Shown here piece by piece: positions 635 through 59,905 of a DNA stretch of 64,000 nucleotides. The notes under the pieces are model-generated. The model was given only the letters and a program-made list of their open reading frames with translations. It was not told the DNA's origin and did no database searches. The position numbers and the translations under genes were made by a program. Each line of letters begins with the position of its first letter. Position 1 is the stretch's first letter. The DNA is from Verrucomicrobiia bacterium (lineage in GTDB: Bacteria; Verrucomicrobiota; Verrucomicrobiia; Limisphaerales; JAEYXS01): positions 124,001 to 188,000 of the forward strand of contig DASWYF010000002.1 of assembly GCA_036405135.1 (NCBI GenBank), written 5' to 3'.

Positions 635-2698
635 TCATGCGGTCACAGTGATTTCAATTCTGGCACCTCGTCCCGGTGCGCTGGAGATGTGGAGCTGCCC
701 GCCGATTTTTTCAGCGCGTTCACGCATGCCGAGCAGGCCGAAATGTCCTGACTGGCCAGAAGGTGCGGACTCCGGCTGAAAACCTTGCCCATCATCTGCC
801 ACGATCAGCCGCACATCATCATTCCGATAAGCGAGCTCGATCTTGATGCTATGAGCGCGCGCATGTTTAACGGCGTTCGCCGTCGCCTCCTGGCTGATAC
901 GCAGCAAATGGCTCTCCACCAAGCCGGGCAGGGGACGTGGCTCACCCGTCACGGAGACATCCACATTCACCGAGGAACCATTGCGCACATAGCTGGCCGT
1001 GGCTGAGAGCGCGGTGCCGAGATGTCCATCCTCCAAGGCACGTGCCCGCAAATCCCATACCGAATGACGCGTCTCCGATTGCGTATGCCGCAACATGGAC
1101 TCGATCAAATTGAGCGCGCGCTTCGAAAATTCTGGTGAAGTCTCCAGCCGTGATCGCGCTGCTTGAAGTTGCAGGAGAATGGCGCCGAGCTGTTGTTCAA
1201 TGGTGTCGTGAAACTCTCTGGCGATGCGTGTGCGCTCTTCCAAGACCGCCTCGCGCTCCACCTTTTGCTGGATGACGGCGGTCTGTAGGCGCACCTGCCG
1301 CTTGAGCGTGATGATCCAGATGAGTCCGGCGAAGCACAGCACGCTCGTAGTTCCTAGAGCCACCATGACACGCGTGCGATTCCACCAAGGCGCAGAGCGT
1401 AACAGCAGCACATCCGCCGGATTGCGCAGCAGCAGATGAAAAGCCTGGGGCCAACGTTGTCCGCCTACTTGTATCTGACAGATGCCGGTAAGTTGTATTT
1501 GGCTGAACTGCGGTGGTGGTGTGAAGGTCGCATTGTTCGTTTTCGCCAGATGTGCGCGATAGGTCCAATCCTGGTTCTGCACAATGAGCACATGTTCCGT
1601 CGGCGTTTGGATCCATTCCAGCAATTGCCCCTCTAATTGCACGAGATCTGCGTCATGCGCCCCGTTACGTGCGATGTCTGGAGTCAAGGGAATCGGTGCT
1701 GGTGCCACACCACTCGATGTCTTCTTATAGATGGCATCTTCGAGTGTTGGTGAATATCCGCCAGTGGCCGGAAAGCCTAATACCTCCACTTGATCGCCGA
1801 TATTGAGCGGCATTGCCTGCTTGGTTTTAACCCACAAGCCTTGTGTCTCGTCACGAATGAAAAGCGACTGCCCGGATTCCTGATGTAATACCGTTCCATG
1901 CACTTTCACGCGATGCCCGAAAGCGGCTTCTGGCGCGAACTGGTGCAGGCTGTTGATTGTTCGAGCAGAGACCGCAAAAGCATCCGCTGGCGCAGGTTTG
2001 AGAATGGTGATTTGGTCGAAGTCCGGAACAGCAAGACGGATACCGGTCATCTGCCTGCGGTTGTTGAAGAAGGTCATGCACGCGCCTTTGACCATGATCT
2101 CAGAATCCACCAACCGTTCGGCAAACGTGGCGTCATAGTTGGGCACGCGAACAGAGATCACCCCACCGCTTGTCGCCAGATCAAACTGCAACATGAACGC
2201 ACCATCCGTCCGCAGCTTCGTAGTGGAGCGGACAGTTCCGCGCACTTGCAGCCACTGACAATCTTCCGCGCCAGTGAAGAGCCGTTCGATTGGCATCTCG
2301 CGTGCAGGAGGCAGACCTTCATGGCCCAGCACCGTGAGATTGGAGAGGATGATGACCGGCGCATAACTTCCCGGCCCGCTGATGCCGGTGAGTTCCACGA
2401 GGTCGCCGGCCTTGAGCCGATAACCCTTCGGCGAGGTATTCGTCACATAGATGCCGCCTGTGCCATCTTGGATCGTCAATTCACGGCAAATATCCTGTCG
2501 ATAAAACGTCACGACTGCCTGCACCTTCACTGGGTAATTCTTGGCGGCTTCCTCAGGTGTGAGCTGGCGGATCTGCTGTGCCTGAGTGAGCAGGGGCAGC
2601 TTGTTATCGGCAAAAAGAGCAGGGGAAAGATGGCAGAATGCCAATAGCACGACACAAGCCATCGCAAAGGTACGGCATATGGCCAAGCGGCTCATCAT
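635..2698 (-). CDS. Membrane sensor histidine kinase (HisKA_3 type) with OB-like extracytoplasmic repeats
   Basis: 687-residue sensor kinase from the ATG at 2698. This start has an AAGGG eight bases upstream and begins directly with a signal-peptide-like segment; an in-frame ATG at 2761 would add 21 residues. After the signal come two related beta-rich segments, each with a V.V.A/G.V......L.I.D.T.G..V pattern like OB-fold sensor domains. A transmembrane helix follows (VMVALGTTSVLCFAGLIWII). The cytoplasmic part has the HisKA_3 dimerisation motif REFHDTIEQQLGA, with the phospho-His near residue 497. It ends with a HATPase_c domain showing an N-box (ANAVKHA), DDGQGF and GHFGLLGMRERA. It pairs with the downstream NarL-type regulator. 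The ligand is unknown. Confidence 0.92.
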   Translation of the reverse strand: MMSRLAICRTFAMACVVLLAFCHLSPALFADNKLPLLTQAQQIRQLTPEEAAKNYPVKVQAVVTFYRQDICRELTIQDGTGGIYVTNTSPKGYRLKAGDLVELTGISGPGSYAPVIILSNLTVLGHEGLPPAREMPIERLFTGAEDCQWLQVRGTVRSTTKLRTDGAFMLQFDLATSGGVISVRVPNYDATFAERLVDSEIMVKGACMTFFNNRRQMTGIRLAVPDFDQITILKPAPADAFAVSARTINSLHQFAPEAAFGHRVKVHGTVLHQESGQSLFIRDETQGLWVKTKQAMPLNIGDQVEVLGFPATGGYSPTLEDAIYKKTSSGVAPAPIPLTPDIARNGAHDADLVQLEGQLLEWIQTPTEHVLIVQNQDWTYRAHLAKTNNATFTPPPQFSQIQLTGICQIQVGGQRWPQAFHLLLRNPADVLLLRSAPWWNRTRVMVALGTTSVLCFAGLIWIITLKRQVRLQTAVIQQKVEREAVLEERTRIAREFHDTIEQQLGAILLQLQAARSRLETSPEFSKRALNLIESMLRHTQSETRHSVWDLRARALEDGHLGTALSATASYVRNGSSVNVDVSVTGEPRPLPGLVESHLLRISQEATANAVKHARAHSIKIELAYRNDDVRLIVADDGQGFQPESAPSGQSGHFGLLGMRERAEKIGGQLHISSAPGRGARIEITVTA

Positions 2699-2882
2699 GA
2701 GGATAACCCTTATTTGCTGTCGAAATGCCGATTTGGCAAGCCGGATTCTGAAAATAGGCATAGGACTAGGCCCGGATGAGCCCTCAAAAAACAGTTGAGG
2801 GAATTGGCCTTTTTCCCCAAAGTCCCAACGTTTCGAGCCAACAACCTCGGAACATTAACCCCGTACTGAATACGATTGATCC

Positions 2883-3983
2883 ATGTCTACTTTGAACGTT
2901 AAACCCGCCGGTTCCTGCCGCTGGGACATGCTGGCCCTCGGTGAAATCATGCTGCGTCTGGACCCCGGTGAAGGCCGTGTCCGCACCACCCGTGAATTCA
3001 AGGTCTGGGAAGGCGGCGGCGAATATAACGTGGCGCGCGGTCTCCGCCGTTGCTTCGGCATGAAGACGGCTGTGGCCACTGCCTTCGCCGATAACGATGT
3101 GGGTCGTCTCCTCGAAGACTTCATCCTCCAAGGCGGCGTGGCCACGGATTACATCAAGTGGGAGAAGTTCGACGGCATCGGCCGCGACACCCGCAATGGT
3201 TTGAACTTCACCGAGCGCGGTTACGGTATGCGTGGTGCAGTGGGCATCCCGGATCGTGGCAACACGGCGGCGAGCCATCTCAAGCCCGGTGATTTCGATT
3301 GGGACCAGATCTTCGGCAAAGACGGCGTGCGTTGGTTGCACACCGGCGGCATCTTCGCCGCTCTCTCGGACACGACACCTCAGCTCGTGATCGATTGCGT
3401 GAAGAAGGCCAAGCAATACGGCACCATCGTTTCCTATGATTTGAACTACCGTCCTTCCCTCTGGAAGAGCATCGGTGGTCAGAAGCGCGCGCAGGAAGTG
3501 AACCGAGAGATCGCGAAGTATGTCGATGTGATGATCGGCAACGAAGAAGACTTCACCGCGAGCCTCGGTTTCCACGTGGAAGGTGCGGATGAAAACCTCC
3601 TGCACATCGACGTGACGGCGTTCAAGCGCATGATTGAAGCGGCCATCAAGGAATTCCCGAACTTCAAGGCCACGGCCACGACGTTGCGCGCGGCGAAGAC
3701 GGCGACGATCAATGACTGGAATGCGATCGCCTGGTACAACGGCAACTTCTTCCAGAGCCGTCAGTATCCTGATCTCGAGATTCTCGACCGCGTGGGCGGT
3801 GGCGACAGCTTCGCCTCCGGTTTCATCTATGGTCTGATGACCACGGGTGACGCACAGAAGGCCGTGGAGTACGGTGCCGCGCACGGTGCCTTGGCCATGA
3901 CGACCCCGGGCGATACCTCGATGGCCGACAAGGGCGAAGTCGAGAAGCTCATGAAGGGCGGCGGTGCCCGCGTGCAGCGCTAA
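2883..3983 (+). CDS. PfkB-family carbohydrate kinase (2-keto-3-deoxygluconate kinase-like)
   Basis: 366-residue cytoplasmic sugar kinase of the ribokinase/PfkB family, which phosphorylates a sugar or sugar acid with ATP. The N-terminus has the substrate-loop glycines (ALGEIMLRLDPGEG, then WEGGGEYNVARGLRR). The middle holds VSYDLNYRPSLWKS, typical of KdgK-like members. The C-terminal PfkB signature VGGGDSFASGFIYGL carries catalytic Asp308. The length suits the KdgK/YdjH branch; substrate assignment to 2-keto-3-deoxygluconate is by resemblance only. It is transcribed divergently from the histidine kinase and is followed by a strong intrinsic terminator, so it looks monocistronic. Confidence 0.88.
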   Translation: MSTLNVKPAGSCRWDMLALGEIMLRLDPGEGRVRTTREFKVWEGGGEYNVARGLRRCFGMKTAVATAFADNDVGRLLEDFILQGGVATDYIKWEKFDGIGRDTRNGLNFTERGYGMRGAVGIPDRGNTAASHLKPGDFDWDQIFGKDGVRWLHTGGIFAALSDTTPQLVIDCVKKAKQYGTIVSYDLNYRPSLWKSIGGQKRAQEVNREIAKYVDVMIGNEEDFTASLGFHVEGADENLLHIDVTAFKRMIEAAIKEFPNFKATATTLRAAKTATINDWNAIAWYNGNFFQSRQYPDLEILDRVGGGDSFASGFIYGLMTTGDAQKAVEYGAAHGALAMTTPGDTSMADKGEVEKLMKGGGARVQR

Positions 3984-4003
3984 GCGATAGTTTTATGCGA
4001 AAG

Positions 4004-4033
4004 GCCGGAGCAAGAAATTGCTCCGGCTTTTTT
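4004..4033 (+). terminator. Intrinsic terminator after the PfkB kinase gene
   Basis: Perfect 10-bp stem GCCGGAGCAA/TTGCTCCGGC with a GAAA tetraloop followed by six T residues, 20 bp after the kinase stop codon. Confidence 0.93.
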
Positions 4034-4038
4034 GTTTT

Positions 4039-6219
4039 TCAAGGGGCATCCGGTATGGGGATGAACTCGATGTTGAACAGTGCAAATGCACCGGAAACTG
4101 CGGAATTCTGAAATCCTGCCGGTGCACGGTTGGTGTCGATCCTCAGGGTTTTTCCCCGGGGCAGGGCATCCATTTCAAACTCGACCTGATGGACGATGTC
4201 TTTGGCTACCGTTTTCTTGGAGAGGATTTCATGTCCGATTGAGAAGATGACTGAGCGATCGGAGGGGACACTGAACTGGGCACGGACCTTCATGCGTTTA
4301 GTCTTGATCGCGTCCCGGTTGACTTGGATCTCGCAATACACCTGTGAGACCCAAAGAGTCTCGTCCGGGCCCAGGTCAAACCGCCGCCAGAAATGACCAT
4401 AGCTGTTCACACTATGGAGATCTGTCGCCGGGGTTTCCGGAGTGGGTGAGGGATTCAACAGGATGGCAACGAGATTTTTGGCTCCGTTTTCAATCCTATT
4501 GGTGTAGCCCAAGCTGTTTAACATCGCGATCAAACCTACGGCGTCATCGGCAAATCCCATCCGGTTGATCATGAGGGCACCCGCACCCATGGATTCGAGT
4601 CTCTCTGCCATGGCGCGTGCCGGAAGGCGCTCGATCTCTGCCTGCCATGAGTTATCACTGCGGCCTTTGTTTGACCCGTAAGTGAAGCGGAGTGATTTCG
4701 TGAAGAAGTAGGGTCTTAGGTGCTCGTAAGCGCCCATGTCCATCACTGGATTGCCTTCCGGGAAATCTGCCAGCGGGAGCTGAAAAACCATGGCACCCTC
4801 AGCCAGCTTGGATTCAAGTTTCTCACTGAATGCCCGGTCATCACCAACGATGGCCTGAACTTTGGGCAGGGCCGCAGCTCGGTTTGCATCGGGTAATTGA
4901 TCTGTGATCCCGAACAAGACGAGTGCGCCCGCCAGCAGACGGATGCGAAATGCCGGCCAGCCTGACTTCTTTGCCCAAGCGCTTAACTTTGGCACCAGCC
5001 AAAGCAACAGGGCGGCAGCGATGAACATGCTGTTCCGGTTGCTCGCACGGAAGACGCCGATACCGCCAAAGGACAACCATCCGTTCACTCCGCCGATGAC
5101 CGAATAAGCCAGCACCCAACAGATCTGCCAAAAGGGCAGGGGCACACGACGTGATTCGTGGCGCAACAGCCATCTGATACCAAGAGCTAACAGCACGATG
5201 AGCGTCAAACCGCAGATCATTCCCAAGTAGGGCCCGAACAATTCACCGATGCTGGCGGTCGCATTCGTGTATTTGATGCCTATATCTGACATCCACGGAA
5301 AACGATGCCCCTTGGGCGGTATGAAGAGTTCAATAGGTCTTAAGGCGTATAATTCGGATTCCCGATAATGGCGGGCAATCGCATAGGGATTGCCCCCTGC
5401 GAACAGACGGAACAGCAGAGAGCCAGTGTGAGCCACAACGAACCCTGCGGCCGCAGTGGCCAGACAGATCAGACCGGTCTCCAGATTATCCTTTCGCCGG
5501 TCAGCAAACCAGACGATGACCAGTGAGATCAGCAGAAGCTGGACATACATGTTCAGATAATATGGATTGCTCACGCCCATCAGAAAGGAGACGCCCACGC
5601 AAAATTTCCAGCCACGCGAGAATCGTGGCAACCGATGACGGGTGGCTACCAGCCATGTGACCAGCATTGCCCATGGTATCGTGTAGGTAAGCCCCAAGAG
5701 GAGGTGCCCCAATCCGCGCATCGTATTGTAATAAAGAAATCCGAAGAGCACGGCACCCGTGGCACTCCACAAACGGTTCCAGCGGAACCAGCGGCAGGCC
5801 AGATAGAAGGAGGCTGCCGCCGTGGCATGAGTCAGCATCATGCCCACATTGGAGGCCGCCATCAGCCCGATGCTTCTCGCGATCCAGCCCAACAGGATGG
5901 TGAACGCTTTTTCATACATGGGGTAGTCGTTCCAGTTCGCCCCCATAGGCGCACCCAGCCGGGAGACCGAGATGGGTTCGAGCAGATGATAGTCTCCTTC
6001 TGATGCTGCTTTGATCCAACCAAGGATCTGCATGCTGTCACCGGCATAGGAGGCGGGCACATCCCAGTTCGTCTTCGTCCACAGATCTGAATTGGTGATC
6101 CAGACAAGTGAAACCAGCACGGCCAGTGCTATCGCCACGGCGGCGTCGGTCAAGAGCCGCTTGTTGAACGGGTTTCTTTTCTGCGCGCTGACGGCTGGTG
6201 ATTGTGAGCTGGAAACCAT
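4039..6219 (-). CDS. Polytopic membrane protein, GT-C glycosyltransferase-like
   Basis: 726 residues from the ATG at 6219, chosen because GGAG sits six bases upstream; a TTG at 6324 would extend it by 35 residues without a ribosome site. The N-terminal helix is followed by a long periplasmic loop with acidic residues (YAGDSMQILGWI) and the pattern LGAPMGANWNDYP. About ten further hydrophobic helices follow, then a soluble C-terminal domain of about 250 residues. This topology matches GT-C/YfhO-like enzymes that use polyprenyl-phosphate sugars, but no catalytic motif proves it. It diverges from a GT2 glycosyltransferase gene 130 bp away, suggesting a surface-polysaccharide or glycolipid role. 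Confidence 0.7.
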   Translation of the reverse strand: MVSSSQSPAVSAQKRNPFNKRLLTDAAVAIALAVLVSLVWITNSDLWTKTNWDVPASYAGDSMQILGWIKAASEGDYHLLEPISVSRLGAPMGANWNDYPMYEKAFTILLGWIARSIGLMAASNVGMMLTHATAAASFYLACRWFRWNRLWSATGAVLFGFLYYNTMRGLGHLLLGLTYTIPWAMLVTWLVATRHRLPRFSRGWKFCVGVSFLMGVSNPYYLNMYVQLLLISLVIVWFADRRKDNLETGLICLATAAAGFVVAHTGSLLFRLFAGGNPYAIARHYRESELYALRPIELFIPPKGHRFPWMSDIGIKYTNATASIGELFGPYLGMICGLTLIVLLALGIRWLLRHESRRVPLPFWQICWVLAYSVIGGVNGWLSFGGIGVFRASNRNSMFIAAALLLWLVPKLSAWAKKSGWPAFRIRLLAGALVLFGITDQLPDANRAAALPKVQAIVGDDRAFSEKLESKLAEGAMVFQLPLADFPEGNPVMDMGAYEHLRPYFFTKSLRFTYGSNKGRSDNSWQAEIERLPARAMAERLESMGAGALMINRMGFADDAVGLIAMLNSLGYTNRIENGAKNLVAILLNPSPTPETPATDLHSVNSYGHFWRRFDLGPDETLWVSQVYCEIQVNRDAIKTKRMKVRAQFSVPSDRSVIFSIGHEILSKKTVAKDIVHQVEFEMDALPRGKTLRIDTNRAPAGFQNSAVSGAFALFNIEFIPIPDAP

Positions 6220-54655: not shown

Positions 54656-54671
54656 ACACAATTAGTAGTGT
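54656..54671. promoter_or_regulatory. NrdR-box-like palindrome, proximal
   Basis: ACACAATTAGTAGTGT matches about 13 of 16 positions of the NrdR-box consensus, with intact ACAC and GTGT ends, inside a 7-bp inverted repeat GACACAC/GTGTGTC. It ends 7 bp before the riboswitch. NrdR is the ATP/dATP-sensing repressor of reductase genes. Confidence 0.7.
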
Positions 54672-54678
54672 GTCCATT

Positions 54679-54861
54679 GTCGGCAAGTGCTTACAGCTTG
54701 GGCTGGAAGATGATAGGGAACCGGGTGAAAATCCCGGGTGGTGGCGCCGCTGTATCGAGTGACGACTGTCCCCGCCAGAAATGGCAGCCAAAAGGTCTTT
54801 TTTGAGGCTTTTAAGGTGGGATGGAAGGACGACCTCGGAGCCAGAAGACCTGCTTGCCGAC
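54679..54861 (+). promoter_or_regulatory. Cobalamin riboswitch controlling the class I ribonucleotide reductase operon
   Basis: The closing P1 stem is a perfect 9-bp pair, GTCGGCAAG (54679-54687) with CTTGCCGAC (54853-54861). The conserved core is present in order: AGGGAA (54715-54720), the P5-type hairpin CCGGGTGAAAATCCCGG (54721-54737), GCCGCTGTA (54746-54754) and the B12 box AGCCAGAAGACCTGC. It binds adenosylcobalamin or another corrinoid and would normally switch off downstream expression. The expression platform lies in the next 200 bases. These include an 8-bp pairing GGCCAGCC/GGCTGGCC, but I cannot tell whether it acts on transcription or on translation. Confidence 0.93.
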
Positions 54862-55058
54862 ACTCATCGGGCCAGCCTACGGGCAGGCGACAGTCGCGCC
54901 AACGACTGGATGGGGGAATCGGGCTGGCCGTAAGCCATCGCGCGGGGCGTGATGCGGGCACCTGTCGTCCTCCGGTAGATAAGAGATAAATGCAGGCTGC
55001 CTTGGCGGGTGGTGTGCTGAGATTTACCGGTGAGCCGAGAGGTTCACGAGCCAGTCCC

Positions 55059-56198
55059 ATGATCAAAGACCTTTCGTTTGAGACCGATGACATTTCGGCT
55101 TCTGAGCAGGACGCCCACGTCGTCTATCAGTTCCGCAACAAGACCTTCCGCCTGAACAAGACGAAGGCGCGTGAGCGTCTGAACGGTAAGAAGGTTATCA
55201 ACGGCCTGAAGACGGCCGAACTGAACGTCCTGCCGCTCAAGTATCCCGAGGCCTACCGCATCTATAAGCAGATGAAGGCCAATCACTGGGAGCCGGACGT
55301 GATCGACATGTCCAAGGACGCTCATCAGTGGAACACGGGCGCGCTTACTCCCAAGGAACGCTGGATCATCGAGATGGGCGTGGGCTATTTCTCAGCGGCA
55401 GAAGGCATCGTGGGTGATTCTGTGCTGCACGTCATCGAGGACAACCTGACGGCGGCGGAGTTGAAGCATGCTTCCCTGCGTCAGATCGCCGAAGAGAGCA
55501 TCCACATGGATTCACTCCTGCACATCATCGGCAGCTTGAACGTGGACCTGGATGAAGTGACGGCGAAGTTCAACGACATCCCGAGCATCCAGCGAAAGAA
55601 TGCCTACATCACGCGGCAGATGCCGGAATTGAAGATGGGCATCGACCTGACCGTGACGGCGAACAAGCAGAAGTTCGCGAAAGCCATCTTCGGCATCTCG
55701 CAAGTGATGGAAGGGACGCAGTTCTACGCGCTCTTCGCGATGATCCTGTCCCTGCATCGTCAGAACAAGATGACGGGCATCGGCCAGATGTTCCAATACA
55801 CCTTGCGCGATGAGTCGAACCACATCGCCTTGGGCCGCTACATTTTGACAGAACTGATCGAAGAGAATCAGGACATCTGGACTCCTGAATTCCGTGCTGA
55901 ACTCGTCGAGTTCATGCGCGAAGGCGTGGAGTTGGAAAAGGAATTCGTGCGTGATTGCCTGCCGGAAGACCAAGTGGGCTTGAAGCAATCTGACTTCATC
56001 AATTACGTGGATTACAACGCGGACCGCCGTCTGGCTTCCTTGGGCTTGCCGACGTTGTCCAACGTGAAGACGAATCCGTTCGGCTGGCTGGATGAGGTGA
56101 TCTTCCTGCGCAAGGAAAAGAACTTCTTCGAGACGCGCGTGACGGAGTATCAGACGAGCGGCAGCGTGAAGAACTCGACGGAAGACGATCTGGTTTAA
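55059..56198 (+). CDS. nrdB: Ribonucleoside-diphosphate reductase small subunit, class Ic-like (no radical tyrosine)
   Basis: 379 residues from the ATG at 55059; an in-frame ATG at 54990 would add 23 atypical residues. Ferritin-like R2 protein that generates the oxidant for NrdA. The six metal ligands are visible: E115 ([11 protein letters not shown]), E146 and H149 ([10 protein letters not shown]), E218 ([12 protein letters not shown]), E252 and H255 ([10 protein letters not shown]). The spacing of 31 and 34 residues matches the family. The radical-Tyr site, four residues after H149, is Leu153. With Glu as the first ligand, this is the class Ic (Chlamydia-like, Mn/Fe) pattern. It is first in nrdB-dcd-nrdA, behind NrdR-like boxes and a cobalamin riboswitch. 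Confidence 0.94.
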
Positions 56199-56206
56199 GG
56201 AAAGCT

Positions 56207-56773
56207 ATGGGAGTTCAACCAGATCATTGGATCCGCAAGATGGCCCGGGAACACGGGATGATCGAGCCGTTTGAGGACGGCTTGGTGCGGAAGAGCGATG
56301 CGGGGCCGATCATCAGTTACGGCCTGTCCAGCTACGGTTACGATTTGCGCGTGGCGAATGAATTCAAGGTGTTCACGAACGTGTATAACGCGATCGTGGA
56401 CCCGAAGCATTTCGATGAGCGTTCGTTCGTGGACATCTCGGGTGATTCCTGCCTGGTGCCGCCGAACTCGTTCGCATTGGCGCGGAGCGTGGAGTATTTC
56501 CGCATCCCGCGAAATGTCATCACGCTGTGCGTGGGCAAGAGCACGTATGCGCGGTGCGGTATCATCGTGAATGTGACGCCGTTCGAGCCGGAGTGGGAAG
56601 GGCATGTGACCTTGGAAATCTCGAACACGACGCCCTTGCCGGCGCGCATCTATGCGAATGAGGGCCTGGCGCAAGTGCTGTTCCTTGCGGGTGAGGAGAT
56701 TTGCGAGACGAGTTACAAAGATCGCAAAGGCAAGTATCAGGCGCAGCGAGGCATCGTAGGTCCGCGCGCTTAA
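56207..56773 (+). CDS. dcd: dCTP deaminase
   Basis: 188-residue trimeric enzyme of the dUTPase fold that converts dCTP to dUTP, feeding dTTP synthesis. Family marks are [58 protein letters not shown] and the catalytic Glu in [12 protein letters not shown]. It begins 8 bp after nrdB and 102 bp before nrdA, so it is very probably translated from the same transcript. This links deoxynucleotide production with pyrimidine balance. The short N-terminal extension ([16 protein letters not shown]) is normal for the family. Confidence 0.95.
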
Positions 56774-56875
56774 AAAGATTTTAGATTTTAAAATACGAAA
56801 GCCGTTTCAGCCCTGAGAGCGGACTGGGAATTGCTTCCGTGAAACGACGTTAACGACAGAACCGAACCAGCAGCC

Positions 56876-59743
56876 ATGAGCAACGAAACACTTGAAGCAC
56901 CGACGCTGAATCTCAGCACGACCGGTGAGACGACGGGGATGCCGCAAGTCATCCGCCGTGACCTGGCCTCGGACGCCTCCGGCAAGCCCCGTGTGGTGGG
57001 CTGGATGGGGCATAAGATCGGGCAAGCCGTGCGGGCCGCCGCCGTGGCTTGCGGCGTGGATGAATCGCTCGGCGCGCATGTGCAGGCAGAGATCGAGTTC
57101 CGCCTGAAGCGTGACCGCCCGCTGTTCCTGCACATCGAGCAGTTGCAGGACATGGTGGAAGACACGCTCATGGAACTGAACCAAGGCAGGGTGGCCTTGG
57201 CCTATGCGAAGTATCGCGCGAAGCGCGCGGTGCTGCGTGAGCTGGAAGAGAACAAGGTGGGCCGTCCGGTGGATGATGGTTCCCAGTTGGAACTCGCCAC
57301 GCCGGATCAATTGGTTGATCTGAAGGCGCGTCTGTCTTTCGCCCGCATCGGTCTGAAGCCGCAGTTGCCGGAAGAGGAATTGATTGCGCGCTTGCTGCGC
57401 AGTGTGTCGTTGAATCTCAGCCCGGAAGAGCGTCGTGATACGATCATCCTGAATGCGAAGTCGTTGCTGGATGCGGATTCCGATGCACGCTTCTACGCTG
57501 CGCGCGTGTTGCTGAGCTACATCTACGAAGAGACGTTGCCGTGGAAGATGGCGGATGGTCCGGCGGCGTTGAAGGAAGCGCACAAGAAGGCGTTCCTGGA
57601 TTACATCCCGCACGGTATCAAGCTCGGTCGTCTCGATCCGAAGCTGGCGGAGTTCAATCTCAAGCAGTTGGCGGATGCGCTGGATCCGTTCGCGGACTTG
57701 CAGTTCGATTACATCGGCATCCAGACGCTCTATGATCGTTACCTGATCCACACCTCGGACCCGGTGACGAATCGCAAGCGCCGCCTGGAAGCGCCGCAGA
57801 TCTTCTGGCTGCGCGTGGCGATGGGCCTCGCGCTCGGCGAGAAGGAACGCGAAACGCGCGCGGTGGAATTCTACAGCATCTACAAGACGCGTCGCGCGTG
57901 CAGTTCTACGCCGACTTTGTTCAATGCGGGCACGCAACGGCCGCAGCTCTCGAGCTGCTACCTGTTGTATTGCGGTGACAGCATTGAAGAGATCACGGAG
58001 ACGTGGCGCCGGTTCTCGCACTTGTCCAAGTGGGCGGGTGGCCTCGGTTGCTCCTGGACGGCGATCCGCGGTGCGGGCGCACACATCCATGGCACGAACG
58101 GCGAAAGCTCGGGTGTAATCCCGTTCTTGAAGGTGTCGAATGATATCGCCATCGCGGTGAACCAAGGTGGCAAGCGTCCGGGTGCGTTGTGCTCTTATTT
58201 GGAATTGTGGCACGCTGATATCGAGGACTTCCTCGACCTGCGCAAGGAGACAGGTGATGACCGTCGCCGCACGCATAACATGAACACGGCGCATTGGATT
58301 CCCGATGTGTTCATGAAACGTCTCAAGATGATTTCTGACGGCAAATTGCCGAAGGATGCGACGTGGACGCTCTTCCGCACGAACGAAGTGCGCGATTTGC
58401 CGGAGCTGTTCGGCCAGGCGTTCGAGCAGCGTTACGAACAGTATGAGCGCATGGTGGATGAGGGCATCATCTGGGGCCGCAAGGTCCGTATCTTGCAGCT
58501 CTGGAAACGCATGTTGGAAATGCTCTTCGAGACCGGTCATCCGTGGCTCACGTGGAAAGACCCGGCGAACGTGCGTAACCCGCAAGATCATTGCGGCGTG
58601 ATCCATAACTCGAACCTGTGCACAGAGATCGAGTTGAACACGAGCAAGGACGAAGTGGCGGTGTGCAATCTCGCGAGCGTGAATCTGGCGTCGCATTTGT
58701 TGCCGGATGGCAAGCTGGATCATAAGAAGCTGCAGGAGACGATCCGCGTGGTGATGCGGATGTTGGATAACGTCATCGACATCAACTTCTACCCCGTGGA
58801 AGCGGCGGCGAACTCGAACTTGCGCCATCGTCCGGTGGGCTTGGGCGTGATGGGCATGCAGGATGCGCTCTATGACAAGCATGTCCCGTTCGATACGCCG
58901 GAAGCCGTGGCGTTCAACGACGAGGCGATGGAAGCGATCGCTTACTACGCTTACACGGCCTCGACGGAGTTGGCAGCGGAGAAGGGCGTTTACAGCACAT
59001 ATAAAGGATCCAAGTGGGATCGTGGTCTGTTGCCGCTCGATACGTTGAATCTGCTGGAGAAGGAACGTGGTGTGCCGATTCCGACGGATCGCACGTCCCG
59101 TCTGCCGTGGGACAAGCTGCGCGAGCAGATCAAGAAGCATGGTATGCGGAACTCGAACTGTCTGGCCATCGCGCCGACGGCGACGATCTCCAACATCATG
59201 GGCTGCACGCCGTGCATCGAGCCGACGTACAAGCACATCCATACGAAGTCGAACCTGAGCGGTGAATTCATCCGCACGAATGATTATCTCATCCGCGATC
59301 TGCAGAAGCTCGGCCTGTGGGATGAGCAAATGCTGGCGGACTTGAAATACTTCGATGGCAGCGTGCAAGGCATCGAGCGTATCCCGGCGGACTTGCGTCG
59401 CCTGCACAAGACGGCGTTCGAGATCGCTCCGACGTGGATTCTGCAATGCGCCGCGGTGCGCCAGAAGTGGATCGACCAGGCGCAGAGCACGAACCTCTGG
59501 CTCGCCGAGCCGGATGCGCGTGCCGCGAGCTTCATGTATCGCGAAGCGTGGGAACGTGGTTTGAAGACGACGTATTATCTCCGCACGCTGAATAAAAGCG
59601 CGATCGACAGCGCGAACCGTGATCGCAAACCGGCGGCAGCGGAAGAGCCGGTGAAGGCGCGCAAGGAAGCGACGGAATCGGAGAAGCTGGCGTGCTCGAT
59701 CGAGGCGATGCGGAATGGCGGGACGTGCGAATCTTGCCAGTAA
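56876..59743 (+). CDS. nrdA: Ribonucleoside-diphosphate reductase large subunit
   Basis: 955-residue catalytic subunit of class I reductase. The N-terminal ATP-cone region, about residues 20-120 (VIRRDLASDASGKPRVVG, KIGQAVRAAAV), is the allosteric activity site. The core has TPTLFNAGT, the first redox Cys in PQLSSCYLLYC, the thiyl and substrate residues in IHNSNLCTEIELNTS and the second redox Cys in EVAVCNLASVNL. The radical-transfer Tyr pair lies in GLKTTYYLRTLN. The C-terminal CESC provides the reducing Cys pair. With NrdB it converts NDPs to dNDPs. It is the last gene of the operon and is followed by a terminator. Confidence 0.96.
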   Translation: MSNETLEAPTLNLSTTGETTGMPQVIRRDLASDASGKPRVVGWMGHKIGQAVRAAAVACGVDESLGAHVQAEIEFRLKRDRPLFLHIEQLQDMVEDTLMELNQGRVALAYAKYRAKRAVLRELEENKVGRPVDDGSQLELATPDQLVDLKARLSFARIGLKPQLPEEELIARLLRSVSLNLSPEERRDTIILNAKSLLDADSDARFYAARVLLSYIYEETLPWKMADGPAALKEAHKKAFLDYIPHGIKLGRLDPKLAEFNLKQLADALDPFADLQFDYIGIQTLYDRYLIHTSDPVTNRKRRLEAPQIFWLRVAMGLALGEKERETRAVEFYSIYKTRRACSSTPTLFNAGTQRPQLSSCYLLYCGDSIEEITETWRRFSHLSKWAGGLGCSWTAIRGAGAHIHGTNGESSGVIPFLKVSNDIAIAVNQGGKRPGALCSYLELWHADIEDFLDLRKETGDDRRRTHNMNTAHWIPDVFMKRLKMISDGKLPKDATWTLFRTNEVRDLPELFGQAFEQRYEQYERMVDEGIIWGRKVRILQLWKRMLEMLFETGHPWLTWKDPANVRNPQDHCGVIHNSNLCTEIELNTSKDEVAVCNLASVNLASHLLPDGKLDHKKLQETIRVVMRMLDNVIDINFYPVEAAANSNLRHRPVGLGVMGMQDALYDKHVPFDTPEAVAFNDEAMEAIAYYAYTASTELAAEKGVYSTYKGSKWDRGLLPLDTLNLLEKERGVPIPTDRTSRLPWDKLREQIKKHGMRNSNCLAIAPTATISNIMGCTPCIEPTYKHIHTKSNLSGEFIRTNDYLIRDLQKLGLWDEQMLADLKYFDGSVQGIERIPADLRRLHKTAFEIAPTWILQCAAVRQKWIDQAQSTNLWLAEPDARAASFMYREAWERGLKTTYYLRTLNKSAIDSANRDRKPAAAEEPVKARKEATESEKLACSIEAMRNGGTCESCQ

Positions 59744-59762
59744 GCAGAGTTTGAAAACAGAG

Positions 59763-59794
59763 AACGGCCGGGATGAAAATCCCGGCCGTTTTTT
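59763..59794 (+). terminator. Intrinsic terminator of the ribonucleotide reductase operon
   Basis: Perfect 12-bp stem AACGGCCGGGAT/ATCCCGGCCGTT with a GAAA loop followed by T residues, 20 bp after the nrdA stop codon. Confidence 0.95.
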
Positions 59795-59905
59795 AATGAA
59801 TAGAGGAATTGGAAGCGTGAGCAGTGAACTTTTTGAGCGGTTTTCTTTGCCGTTGTGCCCGCTGCGGCTGGTTCCCTCAGAGGGAACACAGCCGCGGTCC
59901 AAGGA

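Follow-up and report, generated by a model that had tools for sequence, protein, structure and literature searches.

The window, a stretch of 64,000 nucleotides from a Verrucomicrobiia bacterium, holds at positions 54668-59743 of the forward strand what is likely to be the aerobic class I ribonucleotide reductase (RNR) operon of a member of the Verrucomicrobiota, in which a B12 riboswitch is followed by the genes nrdB, dcd and nrdA. The riboswitch is represented by an adenosylcobalamin (AdoCbl) aptamer (RF00174, 54668-54871; 77.8 bits against a gathering score of 31.5, E = 1.8e-17), and a leader (54872-55058) connects it to the start codon of nrdB. The latter gene (55059-56198) encodes a class Ic-like radical-generating subunit R2 of 379 aa (PF00268, 225 bits; best PDB matches 1syy/4d8f). 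Downstream lies the dCTP deaminase gene dcd (56207-56773; TIGR02274, 162.6 bits), which occupies the same place in the related loci L096, L101, L106 and L108, followed by nrdA (56876-59743), encoding the catalytic subunit R1, the partner of R2, with 955 aa and one N-terminal ATP-cone (NF005544, 1127.9 bits, above the cut-off; domain matches PF02867, PF00317 and PF03477; best PDB match 5im3). An open frame of 1031 codons runs antisense to nrdA (56807-59902, reverse strand) and is probably a by-product of composition. In the draft genome of Chthoniobacter flavus Ellin428, nrdA (G390:C59:514263-516097) is split over two frames, possibly by a sequencing frameshift.

The R2 gene was read from the ATG at 55059, which is supported by an ATG at the same position in L096, a relative with 94% identity. 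An in-frame ATG further upstream, at 54990, was rejected as the start because it is not conserved, L096 having TAG there. The product combines a ferritin-like fold, four carboxylate and two His ligands and an adjacent gene for an R1 partner, and thus belongs with the beta subunits of class I RNRs. Its top phmmer match in the PDB was R2c of Chlamydia trachomatis (1syy, E = 2.9e-76, 37% identity), and the closest fold to its AlphaFold (AF2) model (pLDDT 85, pTM 0.84) was that of C. trachomatis NrdB (4m1i; Z 42.9, rmsd 3.5 over 331 aligned residues). The NCBIfam model NF005550 (PRK07209) also matched, at 312.8 bits, just above its cut-off of 309.

Counted from the ATG at 55059, the six metal ligands proposed in the preliminary description are all found exactly where it placed them: E115 (55401-55403), at the position of the first ligand, which is Asp in classes Ia and Ib; E146 and H149, which form an E-x-x-H motif (55494-55505, with codons starting at 55494 and 55503); E218 (55710-55712); and E252 and H255 (codons at 55812 and 55821), which together with D251 occupy 55809-55823. 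The ligand spacings of 31, 69 and 34 were reproduced as well. At the site of the radical Tyr, four residues after H149, the codon CTC (55515-55517) specifies Leu153, again as described; the alignment with 1syy places this residue opposite the chlamydial Phe, not a Tyr, and E115 opposite the chlamydial Glu. The relay residues are also in place, namely W77 (55287-55289), which is the equivalent of E. coli W48 and is invariant in the R2 alignment, D251, and the C-terminal Y364 (56148-56150). We take Y364 to be the equivalent of E. coli Y356 and chlamydial Y338. A first-ligand Glu, the lack of a Tyr at the radical site and a relay of Trp, Asp and C-terminal Tyr place R2 with class Ic in the broad sense, although Leu takes the place of the Phe by which the chlamydial class is strictly defined. 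The class Ic-like label given to the protein earlier stands in these respects and in its nearness to C. trachomatis class Ic in sequence and fold; a Mn(IV)/Fe(III) centre like that of Chlamydia is something that we infer.

To assess the spread of the Leu type, we searched 387 genomes of the phylum, of which 119 yielded an R2-like match. Ninety-seven R2 rows were read, a set that includes the window and some overlapping or duplicate loci, such that a small number of genes enter the count repeatedly. The ligand pattern was E-EH-L-E-EH in 77 rows, E-EH-F-E-EH in 10 and D-EH-Y-E-EH in 9, and in the remaining row ligands were lost. In a separate set of 80 named loci plus the window, all 81 rows combined a first-ligand Glu and Leu at the radical site with retention of W77, D251, Y247 and Y364. 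Chance does not account for so regular a pattern. The R2 gene is under purifying selection, with dN/dS of 0.06 in comparison with L096, 0.09 with L099 and 0.12 with L109. Given this selection and the uniformity of the 81 rows, the Leu at the radical site is not a sequence error. The carriers of the Leu type belong to the Verrucomicrobiota, with a few in the Armatimonadota, and include a cultured isolate, C. flavus Ellin428 (85%). A few Leu-type metagenome-assembled genomes are filed under other groups (Chlamydiae, Blastochloris) and may be mislabelled. In plasmid and phage collections, only relatives with less than 60% identity were found, and the nine that were read are of the Tyr or Phe type.

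The identity of the first ligand goes hand in hand with that of the residue at the radical site: in all 60 R2s compared, the first ligand is Asp where the radical site holds Tyr, and Glu where it holds Leu or Phe. The lone exception among the R2s examined is a duplicate in genome G378 that has lost ligands. There, tandem R2 genes (contig C8, L056; 1985-3007 and 3083-4147) are located upstream of nrdA; the first copy carries Q, E, R, E, V and R at the six ligand sites, whereas the second is intact, and the ligand-lost copy is reminiscent of the Rnr4-type beta-prime partner of yeast. Tandem Leu-type R2 genes that both retain ligands were observed in L057 (G116; 2218-3324 and 3456-4529) and L058 (G207), where the second copy has diverged (42% to the query) and has no C-terminal NFFE box. 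The existence of a ligand-lost duplicate in the phylum raises the question of whether the window R2 might itself be a decayed or non-catalytic beta-prime subunit. We consider this highly improbable, because the protein is the sole R2 in its genome, retains all ligands and relay residues and shows low dN/dS.

Another candidate identity, that of an R2-like ligand-binding oxidase (R2lox) rather than an RNR subunit, has in its favour that R2lox likewise has no Tyr at the site and a Glu as first ligand, and that R2lox models do match the window protein weakly. These matches, however, reach 24-54 bits, far below the respective cut-offs of 194-346. The marks of R2lox are the Tyr of a Tyr-Val crosslink and an Ala at the site of F222 (PMC4118035, PMC7239806). 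At the crosslink-Tyr position the Leu types have Ile, Val or Phe (I213 in the window protein), and F222 is a Phe as in the R2s of RNR. Furthermore, the protein retains the C-terminal relay Tyr and is encoded next to nrdA. An R2lox identity can thus be given almost no credence.

The absence of the radical Tyr might be compensated by another Tyr near the cofactor holding a stable radical, the obvious candidate being Y247 (55797-55799), which corresponds in the 1syy alignment to a chlamydial Tyr that lies five residues ahead of the second-last ligand (E252 in the window protein). In favour of this, Y247 is kept in all 33 Leu types compared. It is, however, also present in 13 of 13 Phe types, including C. 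trachomatis with its metal-based oxidant, and in 9 of 14 Tyr types; being common to Phe and Tyr types, it does not mark a substitute site, and a stable radical at this residue appears very unlikely. With an inert Leu in place of the radical Tyr, it is probably the two metals themselves that act as the oxidant. Class Ic offers a precedent (PMC8463856, PMC11883743) for the oxidation of a Mn/Fe pair by O2 to an oxidant at the Mn(IV) level and for its transfer to R1. By its sequence, the window R2 would thus be of the class Ic type, with an oxidant that is most likely metal-based, and Mn/Fe as the presumed pair.

Phylogenetic analysis defined the position of the Leu types with respect to the chlamydial enzyme. 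In an unrooted 44-row tree, the Leu proteins formed one clade (support 100/100), separated from the Phe and Tyr types by a branch 1.94 changes per column in length; the clade was placed outside the set of Phe and Tyr types and was not nested in the chlamydial Phe clade. The Phe types occurred in several places of this tree, with the Tyr types of the family forming one clade among them. In a 60-row tree that included distant Tyr types, the Leu clade was again single (97/93), and the distant Tyr types were on long branches, which make the deep order of this tree unsure. The second shell of the metal site differs as well (window 55401-55760): D151, S152, L153 and Q221 are invariant in 33 of 33 Leu types, whereas the corresponding residues of the Phe types are H/D, T/A, F and F/W, with H, T and F predominating at the sites of D151, S152 and Q221. 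As a side observation, the 44-row tree, which carries no root, contains a single clade made up of the Tyr/Asp-type R2s of Pseudomonas, Acinetobacter and Acaryochloris, placed among Glu types without the Tyr, an arrangement that would allow a regain of the radical Tyr.

Because the Leu clade lies outside the chlamydial Phe clade, Mn(IV)/Fe(III) can be assigned to it only indirectly, and the long branch and the differing second shell leave room for a cofactor unlike that of Chlamydia. The clade might, for instance, use another metal-based oxidant, such as the Mn2(IV,III) centre of class Id or an Fe(III)Fe(IV) state in stabilised form. A first-ligand Glu is common to classes Ic and Id (PMC8463856), and a deep separate clade with its own D151/S152/Q221 second shell would suit such an oxidant. 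On the other hand, the Lys characteristic of class Id, four residues after the first Glu (this Glu is E67 in PMC8463856; the title of 8dq4 names K71), is replaced by Gly or Ala in all Leu types, and in fold the window R2 matches C. trachomatis R2c (Z 42.9) more closely than it does the structures of class Id (Z about 33-35). Membership in class Id itself was rejected, since that class is defined by a pairing of Tyr with Glu (PMC8463856) and the window R2 has Leu153. On balance, we regard a different metal-based oxidant as unlikely, though worth keeping in view. Still more tentatively, the Leu-type R2s of the Verrucomicrobiota and some Armatimonadota, taken as a separate deep lineage set apart by its second shell, might have a metal cofactor or assembly route not previously described for RNR.

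The reading that we favour, namely a Tyr-less class I R2 with a metal-based oxidant, extends to the control of the operon by B12. RF00174 aptamers also precede the R2 genes of nine relatives (L007, L096, L099, L100, L109, L112, L114, L116 and L117). Within the leader, a hairpin read by eye (CAGTCG-CGCCAA-CGACTG, 54891-54908) exposes a CGCCAA loop that is common to the eight relatives compared and, judging from this sequence, is probably the loop partner of the aptamer. Folding of the single leader gave a z of only -1.2, and for this reason we make no strong structural claim for it and called no expression platform. A riboswitch of a different class, AdoCbl-II, was found before the Leu-type R2 of Armatimonadetes bacterium 55-13 (L156:3770-3848), apparently a case in which such a gene came under the control of B12 independently.

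The genome also encodes a class II RNR, NrdJ, as a second large subunit of 1032 aa (C2:55177-57060; 532 bits, cut-off 399.95). Its only other B12 riboswitch (G000:C16:12951-13122, L185) precedes a gene for a 617-aa BtuB-like TonB receptor, which is followed by two PP-loop ATPase-like genes (the receptor and these genes were named by eye), and a CobQ profile search of the genome gave no match reaching the cut-off. On the strength of the receptor and of the CobQ result, B12 is probably imported or scavenged by the host. Among 35 genomes, NrdJ or a fragment of it was present in 8 of the 11 with the riboswitch and in 10 of the 24 without it (one-sided Fisher p 0.09), or in 7 of the 11 when the fragment was left out (one-sided Fisher p 0.20); the idea that riboswitch and NrdJ are strictly linked was thus rejected, and there is a trend only.

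Given the riboswitch before R2, the NrdJ in the genome and the probable scavenging of B12, the simplest reading is that B12 represses the class I enzyme and that the class II enzyme serves as the alternative. With ample adenosylcobalamin, the riboswitch would turn the operon off and leave the supply of dNTPs to NrdJ; under a shortage of B12 in the presence of O2, the Tyr-less class I enzyme would step in. O2 would then oxidise the dimetal site of R2, and the one-electron oxidant would remain on the metals, most likely as Mn(IV)/Fe(III) as in Chlamydia, with Leu153 acting as an inert filler; from there, the oxidising equivalent would travel via W77, D251 and Y364 to the cysteine of R1. Taken as a whole, this account, which joins the metal-based oxidant of the R2 to repression of the operon by B12 and to NrdJ as the alternative, seems to us probable.

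Among known systems, C. trachomatis R2c resembles the window R2 in its six ligands with Glu first, the absence of the radical Tyr, the Trp/Asp/Tyr relay, the Tyr located five positions ahead of the Glu that serves as fifth ligand, and the overall fold. The two differ in that the window protein has Leu instead of Phe, and H-x-D-S-L with Q221 instead of H-x-H-T-F with F, and in that it belongs to a separate clade on a long branch. The haloarchaeal R2s (Halorussus, Natrinema) likewise have a first-ligand Glu and no Tyr, but carry Phe and form a separate clade. By description, the class O ferritin-like protein, with Phe or Leu at the Tyr site, is also similar, and is described as a minimal separate clade (PMC9531940).

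The preliminary description held that the Leu variant is less studied, which is borne out, and that its pairing with a B12 riboswitch seems new, which is not supported. According to PMC3824934, the occurrence of Leu, Ile and Val in place of the Phe of R2c was already on record in 2010 (Hogbom), and R2c in the broader sense allows them. As for the riboswitch, PMC4991794, citing Borovok 2006, describes the class I nrdABS of Streptomyces as controlled by a B12 riboswitch beside a class II NrdJ. This arrangement matches that of the window in the cobalamin riboswitch upstream of a class I operon and the NrdJ in the genome, although the Streptomyces enzyme is filed as class Ia and gene order and partner genes differ. 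With this precedent, a B12 riboswitch on a class I RNR that coexists with a class II enzyme is not new in kind, and riboswitches precede Leu-type R2s in nine genomes besides that of the window. In the literature searched, we found neither a characterised Leu-type R2 with metal, EPR or activity data nor a description of the combination of Leu and riboswitch or of a Leu clade of this size and coherence.

To our knowledge, only one Tyr-less Mn/Fe R2, that of Chlamydia, has been worked out in depth. The Leu clade is large and conserved, and its residue at this site is not aromatic; it allows one to ask whether the site requires an aromatic side chain at all, and which residues of the second shell set the choice of metal. 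In the organism studied here, the B12 riboswitch would govern whether DNA synthesis relies on a cobalt cofactor or on one that is probably Mn/Fe.
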